A DNA stretch of 59,755 nt, taken from Candidatus Hydrogenedentota bacterium (GTDB lineage Bacteria; Hydrogenedentota; Hydrogenedentia; Hydrogenedentales; SLHB01). The notes under the pieces were generated by a model. It searched no databases. It saw only the letters and a program-made list of their open reading frames with translations, and was not told the origin of the DNA. The position numbers and the translations under genes were made by a program. The stretch lies in contig JACRLJ010000071.1 in the NCBI GenBank assembly GCA_016215105.1, forward strand, positions 1 to 59,755, read 5' to 3'. Shown here in pieces: positions 1,208 to 9,987 of this stretch. Each line of letters opens with the position of its first letter. The stretch's first letter is position 1.

Positions 1208-2404
1208 ATGAGAAACTGGATGGATTGGTTACGGGGCAATAGACCGGATCGCGCGGCCCCGGCGCGGCGCACGGAAACATTTCGCACGGCGTCCGTCCCG
1301 GAAGACGCTCGAACGCAAGGAACGCGCTTCGAGAACTACGTTCCGCTGCCCAACGAGACGCCCTTCTCGATGCTGCAAGTATACCGATTCCTGCGCGACG
1401 CCATCCCCGACGTATCGGAGCCGTCGTCGGAGGCAGCAAAGGCGCGCGCAGAGCGCCTCCTCTTCGAGTTGGATCAACGCGTGAACGGCGGCGACCGCGG
1501 CATGGACGGCCTGCTCGACGTGCTGTACACCTCGCTGTTCACCTACGGCGCGGCGGCCTGTGAAATTGTGTTGACGCAAAGCCGCGAATCCATTTTCGAT
1601 GTCGTGCCCGTGGACGTGTGGACCGTTCGGTTCCGGCGCGAGGAGAGTGGACTCCAGGCTTACCAGCTTCACAACGGCGAGGCCATCAGACTTCCCATGG
1701 ACCGGTTTGTTTACCTCGGCCTGGACCGCGACGGCACAAACCCGTACGGGCGCTCGATGATGCGCTCGATTCCGTTCGTGGTGAAGATTCAGCAGCGGCT
1801 GATGGAAGACATGGCCAAAGCGACCCACAACGCGGGGTGGAGCAAACTCCACGTGAAGTACACACCCGAGGCGCGCGAACGCGGCGAATCGGCGGAAGCC
1901 TATACCCGGCGGCTCGACGGCAGCTTCAACGAGTTGCGCACGAAGCTGAGCGGTCTCGAAGCGGATCAGAATCTCGTCACCTACGACAACGTCAGCGTGA
2001 ATCTTCTGCGCGGAGATCAGCACGCGCAGATCTTCTATGACAATCACAAAGCCATCGAGGAACAGGTGATTACGGGCATGCACCTCATGCCCATTCTGCT
2101 TGGCCGCAATTACGGCACCACCGAGACCTACGGCACGGCCCAATTCGAGATCATCAACCGCCAGGTCGAGGCCATCAACCGTAGCGTCAAACGCCTGCTC
2201 GAACGGCTCTACAACTTTGAACTCGCGCTGATGTGGGGCGAGGCGCGAGCCCGCGTGACGATGCGGTCCAACCGGACCGTCGATGTGCTGAAAGAGGCGC
2301 AGGCCCGCGGCAAAGAAATCGAGAACGCGCTGCGGCTTCGAGAGGCCGGCTTCCTCGAGCACGGCGGCGCCGCGCGGTTGTTGGGAATTGGCTCGACACA
2401 GTGA
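1208..2404 (+). CDS. phage portal protein
   Basis: The 398-aa product resembles the portal of tailed phages: the dodecameric ring at one capsid vertex through which DNA passes and to which the tail attaches. Supporting features are the N-terminal MRNWMDWLRG region, a central TNPYGRSMMR segment before the helical stem, and a C-terminal TTETYGTAQFE region followed by amphipathic helices, as in the DUF935/portal families. Length is slightly short but normal. An AGAGGA ribosome site lies 7 bases before the ATG. It is the first gene of the cluster; no terminase precedes it. A dispersed hairpin repeat starts right after the stop. Confidence 0.8.
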   Translation: MRNWMDWLRGNRPDRAAPARRTETFRTASVPEDARTQGTRFENYVPLPNETPFSMLQVYRFLRDAIPDVSEPSSEAAKARAERLLFELDQRVNGGDRGMDGLLDVLYTSLFTYGAAACEIVLTQSRESIFDVVPVDVWTVRFRREESGLQAYQLHNGEAIRLPMDRFVYLGLDRDGTNPYGRSMMRSIPFVVKIQQRLMEDMAKATHNAGWSKLHVKYTPEARERGESAEAYTRRLDGSFNELRTKLSGLEADQNLVTYDNVSVNLLRGDQHAQIFYDNHKAIEEQVITGMHLMPILLGRNYGTTETYGTAQFEIINRQVEAINRSVKRLLERLYNFELALMWGEARARVTMRSNRTVDVLKEAQARGKEIENALRLREAGFLEHGGAARLLGIGSTQ

Positions 2405-2434
2405 TCGGGATGGCGGATGTCCTCATCCGCCGGT
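2405..2434 (+). repeat. dispersed hairpin repeat, family A (stem GGCGGATG)
   Basis: A CGGGATG flank is followed by a perfect 8-bp stem GGCGGATG (2412-2419) / CATCCGCC (2424-2431) with loop TCCT. It sits directly after the portal stop codon. It belongs to the same family as the repeats at 4085, 4154, 8691-8816, 31632, 48041, 50011 and 55684, which share flank and loop but not stem sequence. Confidence 0.75.
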
Positions 2435-2468
2435 CCAAGCGAGAAAACCTACCTCAAGGAGAACGCAC

Positions 2469-3164
2469 ATGCAATTGGAACCCTTTATCTTTCGACAGGA
2501 AGGCCGGCTCATCGGCATTCGCGCCTTCGACGACAATGACACCGACCCCGTGCTCGGCTCGGTCAACCGCTACGCGCTGCGGCCGCTCGTGCGCGACGAA
2601 TTCGTTGTGTTCACGCTCGACCTGTGCCACAACCAGATCGACCGCCATTTCAGCCGGTTTCCCGACGACGAACTCGAAACCATCAACACCTTGGCCCCGG
2701 GCCGTCCGCTCATGGAACGCCACGACCTGCGCGGGTCCTTACCGCGCGGAACGTTCTTCCGTTCGCAATTGCATCGCGACGGCGAGCGCGTATCCGTCCG
2801 GCCCGACGTGTACGTATTGCGCACGAAGGACAACGAGGACTTCATCCTCAATATCGAGGGAGGTGTCTATCGGGAGACTTCGATTGGGTTTTCGTTTCAA
2901 ACGCCCGAGTGCTCCGTGTGTAATCGCGACCTGCGCACCTGCGATCACGTTCCAGGCCGGTCGTATGGCGACGCGCAGTGCCATTACGTCATGCGCGATG
3001 TGCTCGAAGTCATCGAAGGGTCTGTCGTCCCGTCCGGATCGCAAGGCACCGGATTCGTCGCGCAAGCTCGCGCGCTTCCAGTTGGCCAGGCCCTGGACAC
3101 CGCCCGTCAACGTTTCCATCAACCCATCGAACTGTGGTCCCGCCGGACGTGGGCCGCGGAATGA
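2469..3164 (+). CDS. HK97-family prohead protease
   Basis: The 231-aa product matches the capsid maturation protease that cleaves scaffold and coat proteins during head assembly. A likely catalytic His85 lies in MERHDLRG, and the likely nucleophile Ser138 lies in ETSIGFS, the family's SIGF-type motif. A later strand reads EGSVVPSG, as in the family. Unusually, a Cys/His cluster follows the serine (C148, C151, C158, H160, with C171 and H172), resembling a zinc knuckle. An AAGGAG site precedes the ATG. The stop overlaps the next start (ATGA). Confidence 0.75.
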   Translation: MQLEPFIFRQEGRLIGIRAFDDNDTDPVLGSVNRYALRPLVRDEFVVFTLDLCHNQIDRHFSRFPDDELETINTLAPGRPLMERHDLRGSLPRGTFFRSQLHRDGERVSVRPDVYVLRTKDNEDFILNIEGGVYRETSIGFSFQTPECSVCNRDLRTCDHVPGRSYGDAQCHYVMRDVLEVIEGSVVPSGSQGTGFVAQARALPVGQALDTARQRFHQPIELWSRRTWAAE

Positions 3165-3379
3165 ATACCAACGAGGCGCCAGCCATGGAAAATGAATCGA
3201 CCTACACCGCGTATGAACGCCTGTACCAGTTGCAGTTCGAGAATCTGAACCGTGACTTGAACGAACTGAAGGACCGTGTGAAATCCCTCGAAGTGGCTTT
3301 GGCGCGCGGAGTGATGCTGCTCGTGGCCAATCTGGCCGGGGTCGTCATCATGCTCGCGCAACAAATCATCCACCGGTAA
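3161..3379 (+). CDS. small coiled-coil protein with one C-terminal membrane segment
   Basis: The product is 72 aa. A heptad-like charged region (LQFENLNRDLNELKDRVKSLE) precedes a single hydrophobic segment (about residues 48-68). The pattern recalls XhlA/haemolysin-type small phage membrane proteins that work with holins, but this is only shape similarity. The start is the ATG overlapping the protease stop; an internal ATG at 3185 is an alternative. Position inside the structural operon supports a phage role. Confidence 0.6.
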   Translation: MNTNEAPAMENESTYTAYERLYQLQFENLNRDLNELKDRVKSLEVALARGVMLLVANLAGVVIMLAQQIIHR

Positions 3380-3393
3380 CCAAAGGAGCCGTT

Positions 3394-4137
3394 ATGTTCT
3401 GGAAAATCATTTGTGAAGACGCCGGTACGCCGGTGTCCAACAATGCGCCGGCCGATGGCCGGTTTGTAGTGCATCGCCATATCGACGCCGACGGGCCTCA
3501 CCTTGATTTGCGCGTCGAAATGGATAACTGCCTGATGGGTTGGCGTGTTGACGGCCTCACGCTCGAGGGCGGGCCGTGGGCCACCGAAAAGCGGCCCCAT
3601 CCCTTGCACTGGCTCGAGCAGCCCGGTGACGCGATTCGCGAAGAGTCCGGCGTATACACGTGGGAAAAGCGTGAAGCCGATGAAGTTGTTCTTGTATTGC
3701 GGGACCCGCGCGGCGCCAAGCGCGTGCGCCTGCAGCGCGAAGTCGGTCTGCCGCCCAGCGCCTTGCGAACCATTCGAGCTGCGCTGTCCGGCGCAAACGC
3801 CGCGCCCGCCGACGCAGCCCGTTTAATCGCCGATGGCGCTACCGCCAGGCGGCGCGCAATCGAGCGCTTTTGCGGACTGGGACGTGAACTGGACGGCAGC
3901 GCATTCGACGAAACGCTGTGGCGTAAGACCCTCGCGCCACTGACGCTCGACGAGATTCACGCCCAGTTGCGCGCATACGAAGTCCGCTTCGACAAGGCGC
4001 ACCCGCCGCAGCCCGTGTCCCAGCCGGAATCGCTGCCCGCATGGGAACGCGACAGCCGAACCGGCGCCGCAATGGCCATCCTCCGGGAGGGCGAATGTCC
4101 CCATTCACCGCCTTCCACCAATAACTGCAACCGTTAA
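3394..4137 (+). CDS. LigD-type DNA 3'-phosphoesterase-domain protein
   Basis: The 247-aa product carries, at about residues 20-125, a domain like the 3'-phosphoesterase module of DNA ligase D, which trims 3'-phosphate or 3'-ribonucleotide ends during end joining. Visible matches are His29, then H36-x-D38-x-R40-x-E42, then W50, and a HPLHW motif with His69. These correspond to the family's metal and phosphate ligands, although the first His-His spacing is one residue longer. The remaining C-terminal half is unassigned, and no ligase or polymerase domain is present. An AAGGAG site precedes the ATG. The last 20 or so codons run through a dispersed hairpin repeat (4085-4112), so the native C-terminus may have been altered. 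Confidence 0.65.
   Translation: MFWKIICEDAGTPVSNNAPADGRFVVHRHIDADGPHLDLRVEMDNCLMGWRVDGLTLEGGPWATEKRPHPLHWLEQPGDAIREESGVYTWEKREADEVVLVLRDPRGAKRVRLQREVGLPPSALRTIRAALSGANAAPADAARLIADGATARRRAIERFCGLGRELDGSAFDETLWRKTLAPLTLDEIHAQLRAYEVRFDKAHPPQPVSQPESLPAWERDSRTGAAMAILREGECPHSPPSTNNCNR
4085..4112 (+). repeat. dispersed hairpin repeat, family A (stem GGCGAATG), inside a gene end
   Basis: A CGGGAGG flank is followed by GGCGAATG (4090-4097), loop TCCC and CATTCACC (4102-4109), with one mismatch. It overlaps the 3' end of the phosphoesterase gene and lies about 45 bases before the next family member. Confidence 0.65.
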
Positions 4138-4153
4138 CCCAAAGCACTACCTA

Positions 4154-4180
4154 CGGGAGGGTCGGCGTCCCCGCCGACCG
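4154..4180 (+). repeat. dispersed hairpin repeat, family A (stem GGTCGGCG)
   Basis: A CGGGAGG flank is followed by a perfect stem GGTCGGCG (4160-4167) / CGCCGACC (4172-4179) with loop TCCC, in the gap between the phosphoesterase and decoration-protein genes. The same version is tandemly repeated at 8691-8816. Confidence 0.75.
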
Positions 4181-4234
4181 TCTTAGCAACAGACACAAAA
4201 CCAAACTTCAACCAACCAACTAAGGAGAACCACC

Positions 4235-4615
4235 ATGGCATTTGGAGACATTGGAGGCGCGGTGACGGAACTCGTCATCACGTGCAAATCGCCGGCCTCC
4301 GGCACAGTCAACATCTTGAAAGGCGACGCCGTGAAACTGACCGGCGCGTACACCGTAGACAACGCCACCAGCGCGGAGGACCTCATTTTCGGACAGGCGC
4401 TCGCCAGCACGGTCGAGAACGGCGCCGCCATTCCCGTGAAGGTCCGCGCCGTGTGCCTGTTCGCATACACCGGAACCGCCCCGGCCGTGGACGGCGCGAA
4501 AGGCGTTCTCGCCTCCGCTACGGCAGGGAAAGTGAAGGCCCCCGCGGCCGGCGCCGGTCAAGGCGTAAACGTCAAAGTGGACACGGGCTCGAGCCTGGTC
4601 CACGTACTTCTGTAA
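4235..4615 (+). CDS. phage head decoration-like protein
   Basis: The product is 126 aa, rich in Ala, Gly, Val and Thr, with a beta-strand pattern (SGTVNILKGDAVKLTG…) typical of small capsid-decorating proteins of the DUF2190/gpD type, which bind the outside of mature heads. An AAGGAG site precedes the ATG by 7 bases. Its place immediately before the major capsid gene is the usual one for such proteins. Assignment rests on composition, size and position. Confidence 0.6.
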   Translation: MAFGDIGGAVTELVITCKSPASGTVNILKGDAVKLTGAYTVDNATSAEDLIFGQALASTVENGAAIPVKVRAVCLFAYTGTAPAVDGAKGVLASATAGKVKAPAAGAGQGVNVKVDTGSSLVHVLL

Positions 4616-4630
4616 AGGAGAATGCACACC

Positions 4631-5674
4631 ATGGCATACCGAGACGACACCGTTAAGGAACGCGTCGCGTTCCTCAGTCAAGACCCCGACAAACTGCGCA
4701 CGGCGCGCGGCCGCGCACTGTACGAAACCCTCGAAGGGCTGGGTCTCACCCACTCCCAATTCTTCCGCGCGCTGGACACGAACGTGCAGGACTACTGCGC
4801 GCAGGAGTTCGGCATTGACCTCAACCGCATTACGGTGGACCGCTTCTTTCAGTCCGACCCGAACGCGAAATGGCTGTTCCCGGACATCGTCCGCGACGCC
4901 GTCGTGTCCGGCCTGAAGCGCAAGCCGGTTTATCCGCAGCTCATCATCCGCGACGAGCCCATTCACGGCACCGCGTACGACGTACCGTACGTCCAGGAGA
5001 ACTCCGACGAGGAGGAACTGCGCAAGGTAGCGGAAGGCGCGTCCATCCCCGAGTCCGAGATCACGTACGGCGACCGCATTGTCAAGCTCGATAAGAAAGG
5101 CCGCGGCGTGATCGCGTCGTACGAAGTCATTCGCCGGATGTCGGTGGACATGCTGAAGGTACACCTCCAGCGCATCGGCGAACGCCTCGGCCGCAACCTC
5201 GACGCACGATTGGCGACCGTGTTGGTGAGCGGAGACTCTTCCGGCGCCGGCACCGCGCCCGTGACCGTCAACACGGCCACACCCGGCGCCTGGGTCTACG
5301 GCGATCTGGTCAATGGCTTCATGACCTTGACCCTCGATCACTACTTCACGCCCACGCACATGCTGGCCAACGCCGCGCTTTGTCAGACGCTGCTGGGGCT
5401 AGCCGAGATCAAAGACAGCGTGATGTTCGACTTCGCAAAGACGGGCAACCTGCCCACACCGCTCGGCGTGCGCCTGGTGCCGATGGTGGATCAGCCCGCG
5501 AACAAGCTGACCATCCTCGACGCCAACTACGCGGTCGAGAAGCTGACGGAACAGGACCTCCTGGTCGAGAGCGACAAGCTCATCAATCAACAGTGGGATC
5601 GGACCTACCTCACGGTAGTCACCGATTTCGCGATCATCTACAACAAGGCGCGGCTGGTCGTGAAGAGCGACTAG
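4631..5674 (+). CDS. phage major capsid protein
   Basis: The 347-aa product resembles HK97-fold coat proteins that form the icosahedral shell. Features include a charged helical N-terminus, a central region around KVAEGASIPESEITYGDR, which matches the E-loop/P-domain style of coat proteins, and a C-terminal part ending in TDFAIIYNKARLVVKSD. I chose the ATG at 4631 because AAGGAG lies 11 bases upstream; an ATG at 4622 is too close. It is followed by a strong hairpin, as often seen after coat genes. No separate scaffold gene is apparent. Confidence 0.75.
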   Translation: MAYRDDTVKERVAFLSQDPDKLRTARGRALYETLEGLGLTHSQFFRALDTNVQDYCAQEFGIDLNRITVDRFFQSDPNAKWLFPDIVRDAVVSGLKRKPVYPQLIIRDEPIHGTAYDVPYVQENSDEEELRKVAEGASIPESEITYGDRIVKLDKKGRGVIASYEVIRRMSVDMLKVHLQRIGERLGRNLDARLATVLVSGDSSGAGTAPVTVNTATPGAWVYGDLVNGFMTLTLDHYFTPTHMLANAALCQTLLGLAEIKDSVMFDFAKTGNLPTPLGVRLVPMVDQPANKLTILDANYAVEKLTEQDLLVESDKLINQQWDRTYLTVVTDFAIIYNKARLVVKSD

Positions 5675-5703
5675 TCGCTAACCGCGACGCCCAAGGCGCG
5701 TAG

Positions 5704-5771
5704 GGAGGGGACGAGGGTCCGCCATCGGACAACTCCTCCTCCTCGTCCCCTCCATCTCCCAATTGTCCGAT
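5704..5771 (+). promoter_or_regulatory. hairpin with potential H-type pseudoknot after the capsid gene
   Basis: A perfect 13-bp inverted repeat (GGAGGGGACGAGG at 5704-5716, CCTCGTCCCCTCC at 5741-5753) encloses 24 bases. Within that loop ATCGGACAA (5724-5732) is complementary to TTGTCCGAT (5763-5771), just outside the hairpin, so a pseudoknot could form. It ends 22 bases before the next ATG and could protect, attenuate or regulate mRNA between capsid and adaptor genes. Confidence 0.55.
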
Positions 5772-5793
5772 TCAGCAACCGAAGGAGTTTGTC

Positions 5794-6210
5794 ATGGCGA
5801 ATTTCACCACCGAGACCGCGGTGCGGCTCAAGTTTCACTGGCACGATACGACACTCGTACCCGCGACGCTCGTACAAGCGGGTATCGACGACGCCCACAC
5901 GGAAATACTCCGCTTCCTGGACCCAGTCTACGGCGCAGGACCGGCCGATGACGCGCTCGAAATGGGCGAAACCATTCTCGCCGGCGCCAATGTGGCGCGG
6001 GCCCTTGCCGCGCAGGAGGCGTCTGTTCAGAAGCGAGTCACCATCGGTGGCCAACGCGTTGAAGAAGGCGCTCGCTTTACCTCGCTAATGGCGCTAGCCA
6101 ACGTTGCGGAGACCCAGGCGTGGTATCTGCTCGAGCCCTACTTGCGCGATCGCGCGCCGCGCACTGAGTCCACGACCACCGACACGCAACCTGTCCTCGG
6201 GGAGCTCTAA
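5794..6210 (+). CDS. phage head-tail adaptor-like protein
   Basis: The 138-aa, mainly helical product follows the capsid gene, the standard position for the neck protein that joins the portal to the tail (DUF1320/gp36-like). A segment FLDPVYGAGPADDALEMGE and helices up to about residue 120 fit, but no diagnostic motif is visible. A GAAGGAG site precedes the ATG. The next gene starts 3 bases after the stop. Confidence 0.5.
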   Translation: MANFTTETAVRLKFHWHDTTLVPATLVQAGIDDAHTEILRFLDPVYGAGPADDALEMGETILAGANVARALAAQEASVQKRVTIGGQRVEEGARFTSLMALANVAETQAWYLLEPYLRDRAPRTESTTTDTQPVLGEL

Positions 6211-6213
6211 GCC

Positions 6214-6900
6214 ATGCCCATCACGTTAGGCTCCATCGTTCTAGACGCGACCCATACCAGCGCCGCGGAAAGCTACGCCGAGGTGGGCGGCCGTGATGCG
6301 CGCAAGATTACGCTTTCCGGCCTCATTCTGGGAGAACCGACCGCGGTCGAAATCGAAGCCCGTCTCGACGCCATTCTGGACGCGGCCTCCGCGGAGGACT
6401 ATGGCGTGGCGCTTTCCGTCCGCGCGGACCGCCAACTGTGGGTGCGGCGCGAGTCCTTCGAGCGGGCATTTCGCCCGGATGAGTTGATAGGGTCGTTCAC
6501 CCTCGTTTTGGAGGCGCGAGATCCCTTCGAGTATGCCACCACACCGTCGAGCCACTCCTGGACAATTTCCGCCTCGGGCGCAACACTTGCCCTTACCTCA
6601 GCCGGAAATGCCCATGCGTTGCCCTCCATAACTCTCGTGGCGGCCGGAACGATCATCAACCCGGCGTTTGGCGACGGGACACGCTCCATTCAATTCTCCG
6701 GTACGGTGGCGGCCGGTCAAACGCTCGTGTTTGACGCGCCTTCAGGACGCGTAACGCTCGATGGCGTGGACGTTACGCCCTATACCGCGGGAGAGTTTCC
6801 TCAGATTGCTCCGGAAGGCGCGAATCTTTGCTTCACGGATGACGCGGTCAGTTCGCATCTTGCTTCCGTAACCGTATCGTACAACGATCGCTGGTGGTGA
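6214..6900 (+). CDS. distal tail (Dit-like) protein
   Basis: The 228-aa product is beta-rich. Its N-terminal half (ITLGSIVL…GRDARKITLSGLI) looks like the Dit ring domain that connects tail tube to baseplate in siphophages, and the C-terminal half (GTRSIQFSGTVAAGQTLVFD) is like the galectin-like Dit domain. The start has GGGGAG 9 bases upstream. It lies 3 bases after the adaptor and 3 bases before the Tal-like gene, which fits Dit-Tal order. Tail tube and tape-measure genes normally found before it are missing. Confidence 0.55.
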   Translation: MPITLGSIVLDATHTSAAESYAEVGGRDARKITLSGLILGEPTAVEIEARLDAILDAASAEDYGVALSVRADRQLWVRRESFERAFRPDELIGSFTLVLEARDPFEYATTPSSHSWTISASGATLALTSAGNAHALPSITLVAAGTIINPAFGDGTRSIQFSGTVAAGQTLVFDAPSGRVTLDGVDVTPYTAGEFPQIAPEGANLCFTDDAVSSHLASVTVSYNDRWW

Positions 6901-6903
6901 CCC

Positions 6904-8643
6904 ATGGACTATCGCATCGAAGTGTACGACACCTGGAACCGCCGTATCGCCTCCTATGACGATGTGCCGTTGCTCGAGGCCGTGCGCACCGCGCCGGACC
7001 AGGCCGATACCGTCCGCGGCGTCTTGCCCGACGGCGTTCGCGACCTGAGCCACGCGTATCGTGTGGTCGTGTTGATTGAAGGATCGGTCTTCTGCGATGC
7101 GCGGATTCACCGTGTCGCGCCGCAATGGAGCGACGCGCGCAAACTCATACTCGACCGCTACGTGCATTTCCACGAAGTGATCGAACTCGAGGCCGAGACG
7201 CCCGCGCTCGACGGAAACTCCAGCGTCACGCGCGGGTATCAGAACCGGACCATAAGCAGCATCGTCAAGGACGCTATCAACAGCGCAAACGGCCTCGCGC
7301 ACTACCTGGTCAATCACACCACGTATCCCGATGGCGCCAATCGCGAGTATCAGAAGTTCCTCGGACGCAAGCTGCCGGCCAATGAATTGGGCGTGGGATC
7401 AATCACTACCGGGCAATGGGTCGGCGCGGACCGCATTGACGCGAGTGGCGCGTACGCCAAGGACGGTGACACCGTCGCGGGTCTCGTCGTAGACGGGCAG
7501 CCGTGGCCCGACCTGCGCTTGTTGATGATTGATTGCGAGGAAACGTCGCGGAACAGCCACGCTTGGGTCCGCCATCCCGAAACGGCCTTCTGGACAGATG
7601 CGGAGTACAACGCCAGCGGCTACAAGCTCTGTGCGGATGCCGCCAAGGCCGCGCTCCAGGACCTGATAACAACCAAGGGCATCAGCTACATCGAATTGAA
7701 CCCCCACCGGGACGCGCAGGGAGCCTATGACGATCGTGTAGACGCCTACGGCCGCTACGTCGGACTCATTTTCGGCGGCGGCGAATGTTTCAACGCCGCG
7801 CTTGTCGAGAAGGATCTTGCGGATGTGTATCTCTACCAGGATGGCCGCTATCACCTCCCGGAAATGGAGTTGAAGGACTTCTTCTCCTACTGTGGCGCGA
7901 ATTCGGATTCTATCGAGTCCGTCACCACAACGCTAAACCAGCTCGACGTGTCCGCGGGCCTCTTTGAAGTGTTGGCCGCGCTCGCGTATGCCGCCGGCGG
8001 CGCCGCGTGGTCCGTAGACGCGGATTATGCCGTTCGGTTCTCGTGTCCGGTTCGGCCGGATCGCGTTGTCTTTTTCGATCCCGTCGCGCACGGCGTAACG
8101 CTCGGGTCGGAATCGCGCGACATCGCCAATGCGATCTACTTTGACGGCAATCCCTTGTCGTCGTCACTCGCCCAGACCTACGTGCGTGGTCCGAGTATCG
8201 ACGAGTATGGATTTCACGGGCGCGCGCTGTCGTATTTTTCAATCTCGTTCGCGGAAGACGCCGGCAAACTCGTTAACGGTCTGCTCGACGATCTCGCGTA
8301 CCCGGAGCCGATCGGCGCGATCACGTTTTTCCAGGGCGACCACGCGCTGCGCGTCGGGGACATCGTCGAACTGCGGGGCAACCCCCTTCGGCGGCTCGAG
8401 CGCCGCCTCGACGGCGAATGGCAGAACCGGTTCACGGGAAGACTGGTGGCGCGCGTCAAGAGCGTGGCCCACCGTTTCGAGGGCAAACACGTAACCACCA
8501 CCGCCACGTTTACGTCCCCGTTCCGGTCCGTCGACAACCCCATAAGCTTCATCGTGCGCAGTCAACCCGACGCCGCGACGCTCTACGAATTTCGGCTGGA
8601 CGACGCCGCAGTCGGTCTCGACCTGGGCTACCACCTTGATTAG
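6904..8643 (+). CDS. Tal-like tail protein with embedded staphylococcal-nuclease domain
   Basis: The product is 579 aa. Its N-terminal region (about 1-170) and C-terminal region (about 335-579, with GDHALRVGDIVELRG) look like the tail-hub protein that follows Dit. Residues about 178-330 match a thermonuclease (SNase) domain: D187-G-D189-T, R205 in LRLLMID, D210, E213, and Y282-G-R284. These align with SNase Asp21, Arg35, Asp40, Glu43 and Arg87, so the calcium-dependent active site looks complete. An enzyme cutting DNA or RNA at the tail tip is implied. It forms a tight unit with the Dit-like gene. A 50-bp tandem repeat follows. Confidence 0.7.
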   Translation: MDYRIEVYDTWNRRIASYDDVPLLEAVRTAPDQADTVRGVLPDGVRDLSHAYRVVVLIEGSVFCDARIHRVAPQWSDARKLILDRYVHFHEVIELEAETPALDGNSSVTRGYQNRTISSIVKDAINSANGLAHYLVNHTTYPDGANREYQKFLGRKLPANELGVGSITTGQWVGADRIDASGAYAKDGDTVAGLVVDGQPWPDLRLLMIDCEETSRNSHAWVRHPETAFWTDAEYNASGYKLCADAAKAALQDLITTKGISYIELNPHRDAQGAYDDRVDAYGRYVGLIFGGGECFNAALVEKDLADVYLYQDGRYHLPEMELKDFFSYCGANSDSIESVTTTLNQLDVSAGLFEVLAALAYAAGGAAWSVDADYAVRFSCPVRPDRVVFFDPVAHGVTLGSESRDIANAIYFDGNPLSSSLAQTYVRGPSIDEYGFHGRALSYFSISFAEDAGKLVNGLLDDLAYPEPIGAITFFQGDHALRVGDIVELRGNPLRRLERRLDGEWQNRFTGRLVARVKSVAHRFEGKHVTTTATFTSPFRSVDNPISFIVRSQPDAATLYEFRLDDAAVGLDLGYHLD

Positions 8644-8675
8644 CCAAGTCGGTGCCACCGCGACCCCGCGCACTT

Positions 8676-8840
8676 GCCCAAGGCCCGCGCACGGGAGGGT
8701 CGGCGTCCCCGCCGACCACACACCCGCCCAAGGCCCGCGCACGGGAGGGTCGGCGTCCCCGCCGACCTCACACCCGCCCAAGGCCCGCGCACGGGAGGGT
8801 CGGCGTCCCCGCCGACCTCACACCCGCCCAAGGCCCGCGC
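8676..8840 (+). repeat. 50-bp tandem repeat carrying family A hairpins (three full units and a partial)
   Basis: Units start at 8676, 8726 and 8776, with a truncated fourth at 8826. Each full unit contains CGGGAGG and the stem GGTCGGCG / CGCCGACC with loop TCCC. Units 2 and 3 are nearly identical, implying recent duplication. Downstream to about 8905 the DNA is a degenerate GTCCGT-rich run. The whole gap 8644-8941 otherwise holds only the ribosome site ACGGAG (8930-8935) for the next gene. Confidence 0.85.
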
Positions 8841-8941
8841 ACGACTCTGCGTCTTTGCCACCTCGTGTCCGTCCGTGCCAGTCCGTGTCCGTCCGTGTCT
8901 GTCCTTAAACCTGCTAACCCTGCCAAGAACGGAGTTTGATT

Positions 8942-9463
8942 ATGGCCATTAAAGGCAACGCATACACCAAGACCAAATGGGTCTTCGAGGAACGTCCGGT
9001 TGCGTCGTCCAAACTCAACACCTGGGACGATCGTATCGAAGCCGCCCTCGAGCTGATCCACTACCTGCTGTCCATCTCCTGGGGCGGAGGAAGCGGCGTG
9101 ATTCGCAAGGCGTCCACCGACGACCTCAAAGTCTTCGCCACCTCACCCGCAAGCCTGACCGTGGAGGTGAGACCCGGATACGCCTTCGTCTCGCACTACC
9201 CCTACAAGCTCGCAGCCACGACGCAGACCGCGGCGGTCACGCCTCCGGTAGGCAACCCCCGCATAGACCTTGTGCAGGCCCGGCTCGAAACCTGGGACAT
9301 CAGCGTCAAGACCGGCACGCCCGCCGCGACCCCGGTAGCGCCTTCGCCCGACACCAATTGCCTGGCCCTGGCCCAGCTCTACCTCCGCCCCGCAATGACC
9401 GTCATCAAAGACACCAACGACGGAACCAACGGCTACGTGACAGACGCGCGAGTGTTCTTATGA
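8942..9463 (+). CDS. phage baseplate/fibre-like structural protein
   Basis: The product is 173 aa. The N-terminus (…ERPVASSKLNTWDDRIE) suggests an adaptor helix that binds the tail. The rest is beta-rich, with RIDLVQARLETWD and a C-terminal KDTNDGTNGYVTDARVFL, a pattern seen in phage baseplate or fibre-base proteins. ACGGAG lies 6 bases before this ATG, so I prefer it to the ATG at 8936. Family assignment is tentative. Confidence 0.55.
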   Translation: MAIKGNAYTKTKWVFEERPVASSKLNTWDDRIEAALELIHYLLSISWGGGSGVIRKASTDDLKVFATSPASLTVEVRPGYAFVSHYPYKLAATTQTAAVTPPVGNPRIDLVQARLETWDISVKTGTPAATPVAPSPDTNCLALAQLYLRPAMTVIKDTNDGTNGYVTDARVFL

Positions 9464-9518
9464 GCCACGACGATGGACCAACTCGCGATAGATGACGCTC
9501 CGGAAGCCATCGTCGTCC

Positions 9519-9586
9519 CGATCGGTCTGATCGGTCTGATCGGTCCGATCCGTCGGACGTGTCGGACCTGTCCGACTGGTCTGACC
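9519..9586. repeat. degenerate decamer array (CGATCGGTCT-like then CGGACGTGT-like)
   Basis: The unit GATCGGTCT recurs about every 10 bases and grades into GTCGGAC/GTCCGAC palindromes. It lies between the fibre-like and holin-like genes. Direct repeats with a one-helical-turn period could bind a protein cooperatively. A related palindrome is at 44584-44612. Confidence 0.6.
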
Positions 9587-9621
9587 CAAACCACCACCAA
9601 CAACAAGAAAGGAACACCACC

Positions 9622-9987
9622 ATGACCATCACCAACGCATTAACCACCGACACCGGCCTGACCCTCGTCAGCGCCGTGCTCGGAACCCTTTGGACCGCGT
9701 TCAAATCCAGCGAATGGTACGAACGCTCCCGAAACCGCCGTTACTACAAGGCCATCCAGGCCCTCGAGGCCGGTGTCGAGGAGACCTACCGCACCTACGT
9801 CCGCGCCATCAAAGACGCCAGCGAAGACGGTAGACTCACCAACGACGAGATCGATCGCGCCCGCGCCCAAGCCCGCGCCGCCGCCATCGCCTTCGGTAAC
9901 ACCCAAGGAATAGACGTCCTCCGCGAACTCGGCGAAGACTACATCAACCTCTGGATCGCCAAACTCGCCAGCCGTCAGAAGAACTAA
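9622..9987 (+). CDS. holin-like small membrane protein
   Basis: The product is 121 aa. A short hydrophobic segment (about residues 10-26) is followed by a basic stretch (ERSRNRRYYKAIQALE) and a long charged amphipathic region with DGRLTNDEIDRAR. This layout resembles LL-H-type phage holins (one anchor plus a helical tail), but sequence evidence is weak. AAAGGA lies 10 bases before the ATG. It is the last gene of the cluster and is followed by a strong inverted repeat. No endolysin gene is adjacent. Confidence 0.5.
   Translation: MTITNALTTDTGLTLVSAVLGTLWTAFKSSEWYERSRNRRYYKAIQALEAGVEETYRTYVRAIKDASEDGRLTNDEIDRARAQARAAAIAFGNTQGIDVLRELGEDYINLWIAKLASRQKN

Follow-up and report, generated by a model that had tools for sequence, protein, structure and literature searches.

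A predicted nuclease domain inserted in the tail hub encoded by a phage-derived gene cluster of Hydrogenedentota

The window analysed here, a stretch of 59,755 nucleotides from a Candidatus Hydrogenedentota bacterium (contig JACRLJ010000071.1), carries at positions 1208-9987 a conserved cluster of 11 genes, the order of which is maintained in more than 30 genomes. The genes, and the parts of the tail hub on which this study centres, are as follows:

1208-2404, forward strand: portal protein (Portal_Mu, 32.3 bits against a cut-off of 23.9; PHROG 3753, E 2.5e-39)
2388-3164, forward strand: prohead protease-like protein (PHROG 16951, E 4e-31; the counterpart at locus L085 matches Peptidase_S78)
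3182-3376, forward strand: holin-like protein of 65 amino acids with a coiled coil and a membrane helix (about 32 loci; weak match to the holin family PHROG 689, E 0.08)
3394-4137, forward strand: LigD-type 3'-phosphoesterase (residues 21-118) fused to a helical scaffold-like domain (AlphaFold model and fold match)
4235-4615, forward strand: decoration or virion structural protein (PHROG 4588, E 2.7e-8)
4622-5674, forward strand: HK97-type major capsid protein, MCP (Phage_capsid_4, 53.3 bits; PHROG 3922, E 5.5e-47)
5794-6210, forward strand: head-tail connector-like protein of 138 amino acids (assigned by position and character; 36 loci; no family match)
6214-6900, forward strand: distal tail protein, Dit (Pfam SPP1_Dit, 29.8 bits against a cut-off of 25; PHROG 33, E 3e-15)
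6904-8643, forward strand: gp27/Tal-like tail hub with an inserted staphylococcal nuclease (SNase) domain, 579 amino acids (open frame from ATG to TAG; AlphaFold model and fold matches)
6904-7407, forward strand: N-terminal part of the hub, residues 1-168 (hub fold matches spanning model residues 1-540)
7408-7902, forward strand: SNase domain, residues 169-333 (Pfam, fold matches and conservation)
within the SNase domain, forward strand: catalytic residues D189 (7468-7470), R205, D210, E213 and R284 (7753-7755)
7903-8640, forward strand: C-terminal part of the hub, residues 334-579 (AlphaFold model; residues 571-579 of low confidence)
8936-9463, forward strand: virion structural protein (PHROG 9534, head protein, E 7e-7; PHROG 20556, baseplate, E 1e-4)
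9559-9987, forward strand: conserved 142-amino-acid protein with an N-terminal membrane helix (36 loci; no useful family match)

The host genes that flank the cluster vary from genome to genome, and no conserved replication or integration gene lies beside it. When open reading frames were clustered over more than 50 loci, no further family was common to more than six, antisense or overlapping frames of the cluster genes aside. The 11 conserved families include neither a tail tube nor a tape measure, and no endolysin was found among them. Promoter and terminator scans returned chance numbers only, so the term operon is unsupported here. A near-perfect tandem repeat of 50 bp (3.4 copies, 99% identical) occupies positions 8676-8843, separating the hub gene from the structural gene that follows. 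At one other locus (L025, 848-2713), a protein of 622 amino acids with a signal-like N-terminus is encoded between the protease and the holin-like gene; its family occurs in six loci, and its C-terminus weakly matches a phage depolymerase (E 0.004).

The first-pass annotation had read the open frame at 6904-8643 as a tail hub with an SNase domain, at residues 170-335, embedded between Tal-like ends. An AlphaFold model, for which the alignment consisted of 30 orthologues, had a mean pLDDT of 91.4 and a pTM of 0.90 and bears out this architecture. Outside the insert, model residues 1-540 matched more than 30 tail-hub entries (Z 13.5-21), the best being the tail protein of Haloferax tailed virus 1 (HFTV1; 9h4p, Z 21.2), with Mu gp44 (1wru, Z 15.5) and T4 gp27 (Z 14.2) also recovered; the fold is common, too, to contractile injection system hubs and VgrG. 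A tail-protein search of a viral structure library returned hubs only, among the matches listed. The hub gene directly follows the Dit gene, and Dit is its neighbour at orthologous loci as well. In sequence, none of the tail-hub families of Pfam or PHROG was matched, the only matches being to SNase and, weakly, to an endonuclease PHROG; membership of the hub family thus rests on fold and gene position.

The structure prediction that the annotation had proposed as a check revealed an OB-type SNase fold, the limits of which we refine to about residues 169-333. This segment superimposes on solved SNases (for example 1snc and 1syb) with VIA Z scores of 13.4-13.5, over 126-128 residues at an rmsd of 2.3-2.5 A. 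Pfam SNase (PF00565) scored 22.6 bits at residues 204-313 (E 1.5e-4), above its cut-off of 21; 25 of the 30 hub orthologues match the same family independently (E <= 0.01; best E 5.8e-7), and a profile of the orthologues retrieved solved SNases (E 1.5e-7). The Pfam cut-off, the profile search and the SNase-specific structure match together rule out that the likeness is fortuitous or reflects no more than a generic OB fold. Moreover, since an SNase fold at 169-333 is bounded on either side by the hub fold, the domain is a true insertion and not an OB domain of the hub misread as a nuclease. A second, separate SNase gene is present in the same genome (L001, 1501-1788, in an open frame of 307 amino acids).

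The residues that the annotation had named as the active site all align as proposed. D189, R205, D210, E213 and R284 correspond to D21, R35, D40, E43 and R87 in SNase numbering, and D187 and T190 (D19 and T22 of SNase) are likewise present; the T41 position is C211 in the hub and varies among orthologues. All checked catalytic residues are kept in 27 of 30 near-complete orthologues: D187, T190 and R284 in 30/30, R205 and E213 in 29/30, D210 in 28/30 and D189 in 27/30. In two close genome pairs, the dN/dS of the SNase domain was 0.13 and 0.04, and the domain is under purifying selection. By appearance, the domain has everything it needs to cleave DNA or RNA. Like staphylococcal nuclease itself (PF00565, 1snc), it has the OB-type fold and the D/R/D/E/R set and passes the Pfam cut-off; however, staphylococcal nuclease is a secreted stand-alone enzyme, whereas here the domain is inserted in a tail hub.

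Loss of the catalytic residues in relatives, which had been named as evidence against an active enzyme, was found in a minority: 27 orthologues retain the site, but three have lost residues (D189N and D210E at L043; D189R at L049; D189R, R205G, D210G and E213S at L052). In the hub-module tree the L049 and L052 hubs (genomes G006 and G005) group together as sisters, which suggests that the site was lost about twice; the rpoB tree calls for three changes. All three proteins are still full-length hubs, and catalysis can therefore be dispensable. The SNase/OB domain might thus have been recruited for binding a receptor or nucleic acid, with catalysis incidental. The hub of the gene transfer agent (GTA) RcGTA offers a parallel, as it carries at a similar position (residues 168-249) an oligosaccharide-binding domain read as receptor-facing (PMC7296036). 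Nevertheless, the catalytic residues are near-invariant while neighbouring positions vary among orthologues, and we consider a purely binding role improbable.

The first-pass annotation had also pointed to a phosphoesterase gene in the cluster and paired the two enzymes as nucleic-acid-processing functions of one particle. The fold confirms the gene as a LigD-type 3'-phosphoesterase: the AlphaFold model of the 3394-4137 protein (pLDDT 92.3, pTM 0.72) matches LigD 3p4h at residues 21-118 (VIA Z 12.4, 1.8 A, 96 residues), and the HxH...H.D.R...H residues shared with the LigD enzymes (PDB 3p4h, 3n9b) are retained in nearly all orthologues. In contrast to LigD, the domain stays below the Pfam LigD_N cut-off (12.6 and 16.4 against 31.1 bits) and is fused to a scaffold-like domain within a capsid gene cluster. 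This C-terminal domain, which is helical, has a homologue (E 2e-6 to 6e-6) in the C-terminal part of a prohead protease from a different family, and at two loci (L039, 6605-7663; L043, 5888-6961) the scaffold domain is fused straight to the protease, the phosphoesterase domain being absent. As it is fused to a scaffold-type domain, the phosphoesterase is probably built into the capsid.

The pairing of the two enzymes fared less well. Both are indeed encoded in the cluster, but lineages without a hub keep the phosphoesterase, which leaves the support loose and weakens the idea of an obligate coupling; the SNase and the phosphoesterase are thus not obligate partners. At L043, loss of the phosphoesterase domain coincides with the broken SNase active site; this double loss is a single case and no proof of coupling.

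The MCP gene is present in single copy in 52 of 68 Hydrogenedentota genomes (33/37 high-quality genomes in a first sample), and the SNase-hub in 37 of the 68 (24/38 high-quality genomes). Protein distances of five capsid-module genes followed those of rpoB (Mantel r 0.83 over 42 genomes), as did, less closely, those of the module formed by Dit, the hub and the 8936-9463 gene (r 0.58 over 30 genomes); in either case none of 2000 permutations reached as high a value. Most host families were recovered as groups in the capsid-module trees. These distances and trees indicate that the cluster is old and mainly vertically transmitted, and that the tail module may have seen some exchange.

Thirteen genomes have capsid genes and no hub. 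Families f5, f6 and most of f10 have kept the capsid genes, the phosphoesterase and the 9559-9987-type gene, while the hub and the 8936-9463-type gene, which are present or absent together, are missing; some of these hub-less clusters still carry Dit and the connector. On the rpoB tree, the presence of the hub requires at least three changes. Since the capsid genes persist after loss of the hub, the tail tip is not essential to whatever keeps them.

Could the cluster be a decaying prophage? The hub frame is broken in a few assemblies (by one stop in G027, split in G052, in pieces in G014), as would be expected of a remnant. A prophage is, however, ruled out by the conservation of the cluster, its single copy in most genomes, its low dN/dS and its host-like phylogeny. 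The conserved gene order and the lack of relatives found in viral contigs further argue against decay, which we regard as very improbable. The best reading of these data is that a phage-derived particle cluster has been inherited over the long term in Hydrogenedentota and domesticated.

Outside the phylum, the SNase-hub was absent from about 318 sampled genomes. No relatives of the hub or the MCP were confirmed in viral contigs, and plasmids gave no match. In phage records the hub gave only weak SNase-domain matches to Staphylococcus phages (E 0.02); the MCP and portal found relatives there at 20-34% identity. The MCP was detected in 13 sampled bacterial genomes outside Hydrogenedentota, and in every one of these (13/13) a portal gene was found too, often on a different contig. 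One outside family (L085-L087) comprises portal, protease-scaffold, decoration and MCP genes and has no tail genes in its vicinity; a second family (L089, L092) comprises a scaffold-like protein, decoration, MCP, connector, Dit, protease and an 8936-type gene, its portal being a lone gene amid housekeeping genes. Several bacterial groups thus harbour relatives of the phage lineage in reduced and scattered form. The MCP and portal of the same lineage, often at separate loci, were seen at L085-L087, L089, L092 and L161-L169, and at L161 and L162 the portal stands alone among housekeeping genes. At L085, a frame of 251 amino acids without a known family (3276-4028) lies between portal and protease, near where Hydrogenedentota have other cluster genes.

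An inherited, single-copy cluster of head and tail genes under purifying selection recalls the GTAs (RcGTA, Rhodogtaviriformidae). Host DNA might be packaged by a terminase encoded elsewhere, with the SNase clearing matrix DNA or trimming DNA for uptake. Vertical inheritance, head and tail-tip genes and the lack of an adjoining conserved replication or integration gene fit this proposal, as does the PHROG 2 terminase found beside the portal (E about 1e-28 to 1e-32) in several of the outside relatives that share MCP and portal. Those matches also indicate that the search could see a terminase of that type. Nevertheless, the cluster itself holds no terminase, and none is conserved among the 37 high-quality Hydrogenedentota genomes, of which only four matched PF03237, two PF03354, 11 PHROG 2 (several of these matches being weak) and two PHROG 675, as compared with 33 that have the MCP. 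Unlike GTAs, the cluster also lacks a tail tube and a tape measure, and the hub has been lost in several families. Judged by terminase and by tail tube and tape measure, the criteria tested, the cluster fails as a GTA, and we hold gene transfer to be possible though unlikely. With no conserved terminase, a DNA-injecting particle is not assured; the usual mode of DNA packaging may not apply to this particle, though a very divergent, unusual or host motor might do the work. The first-pass annotation had not recognised that the cluster is inherited across the phylum, nor that no conserved terminase, tail tube or tape measure can be detected with it, and both points alter the range of plausible functions.

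The explanation we favour, with slightly better than even confidence, is that the hub sits at the tip of a long-inherited, phage-derived and GTA-like particle and has a nuclease of SNase type built into it, acting outside the producing cell. The hub would assemble as a trimer near the portal of the capsid, because no tube or tape-measure gene is present, and such a trimer would set three nuclease domains at the mouth of the particle. SNase-type enzymes require millimolar calcium. If this dependence, which we carry over from known SNases, holds for the hub, the nuclease would be silent in the producing cytoplasm and switched on after release, when it would cleave DNA or RNA outside the cell or in the periplasm, where the particle makes contact. 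Its most likely use, by analogy with the depolymerase tailspikes that act on polysaccharide, would be to remove or shorten nucleic acid encountered on the target surface; direct attack on the nucleic acid of the target cell would be the second choice. The LigD-type phosphoesterase could heal 3'-phosphate ends of the kind that SNases leave.

Such an attack might be the very purpose of the particle, if it delivers or exposes the nuclease as an antibacterial weapon to kill competitors or kin. SNase domains do occur among toxin domains, and the hub fold is the one common to VgrG and contractile injection system hubs. However, the protein has no variable toxin end, and no conserved immunity-like gene tracks the SNase; the sole gene that tracks the hub matches virion structural families. 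Moreover, in contrast to contractile injection systems and tailocins, the conserved families include neither sheath nor tube genes, and have MCP and portal instead. A weapon is, in our estimate, improbable, and slightly less likely than a binding module.

The favoured view of a particle-tip nuclease finds a partial counterpart in RcGTA, the TspA tailspike of which requires calcium, degrades biofilm and raises gene transfer (PMC13420450); there the tail carries a matrix-degrading enzyme, and the Hydrogenedentota hub carries an SNase. With phage hubs (T4 gp27, Mu gp44, siphophage Tal, HFTV1 9h4p) the Hydrogenedentota hub shares the fold on both sides of the insert and the gene position after Dit, but those proteins carry peptidase, lysin or sugar-binding domains, whereas this one carries a nuclease and matches no tail family in sequence. 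Encapsulins are similar in that cells have domesticated an HK97-type capsid gene, with an enzyme probably tethered inside here; they differ in that portal, protease, connector, Dit and hub are all present in the Hydrogenedentota cluster. A bolder proposal, tentative and in our view rather doubtful, is that of a virus-derived machine of a new type that does not serve to carry DNA. It would be a capsid devoid of terminase, with a 3'-phosphoesterase anchored inside through the scaffold domain and, where the lineage has the complete cluster, a nuclease at the opening; the phylum (and, in reduced form, other phyla) would have retained it for the processing of nucleic acids.

Phage tail tips are known to bear enzymes for breaching cell walls or sugar coats. 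In the open-access literature searched, we found no SNase domain described in a tail hub and no paper linking Hydrogenedentota with gene transfer agents; the SNase-in-hub architecture appears to be undescribed there. The cluster resembles a domesticated particle kept across most of the examined members of this uncultured phylum without the packaging motor that a GTA needs. If particles are made, it would become testable whether selection other than for the movement of DNA can keep a phage head, and whether nucleases at tail tips help particles to cross DNA-rich matrices or to attack cells.
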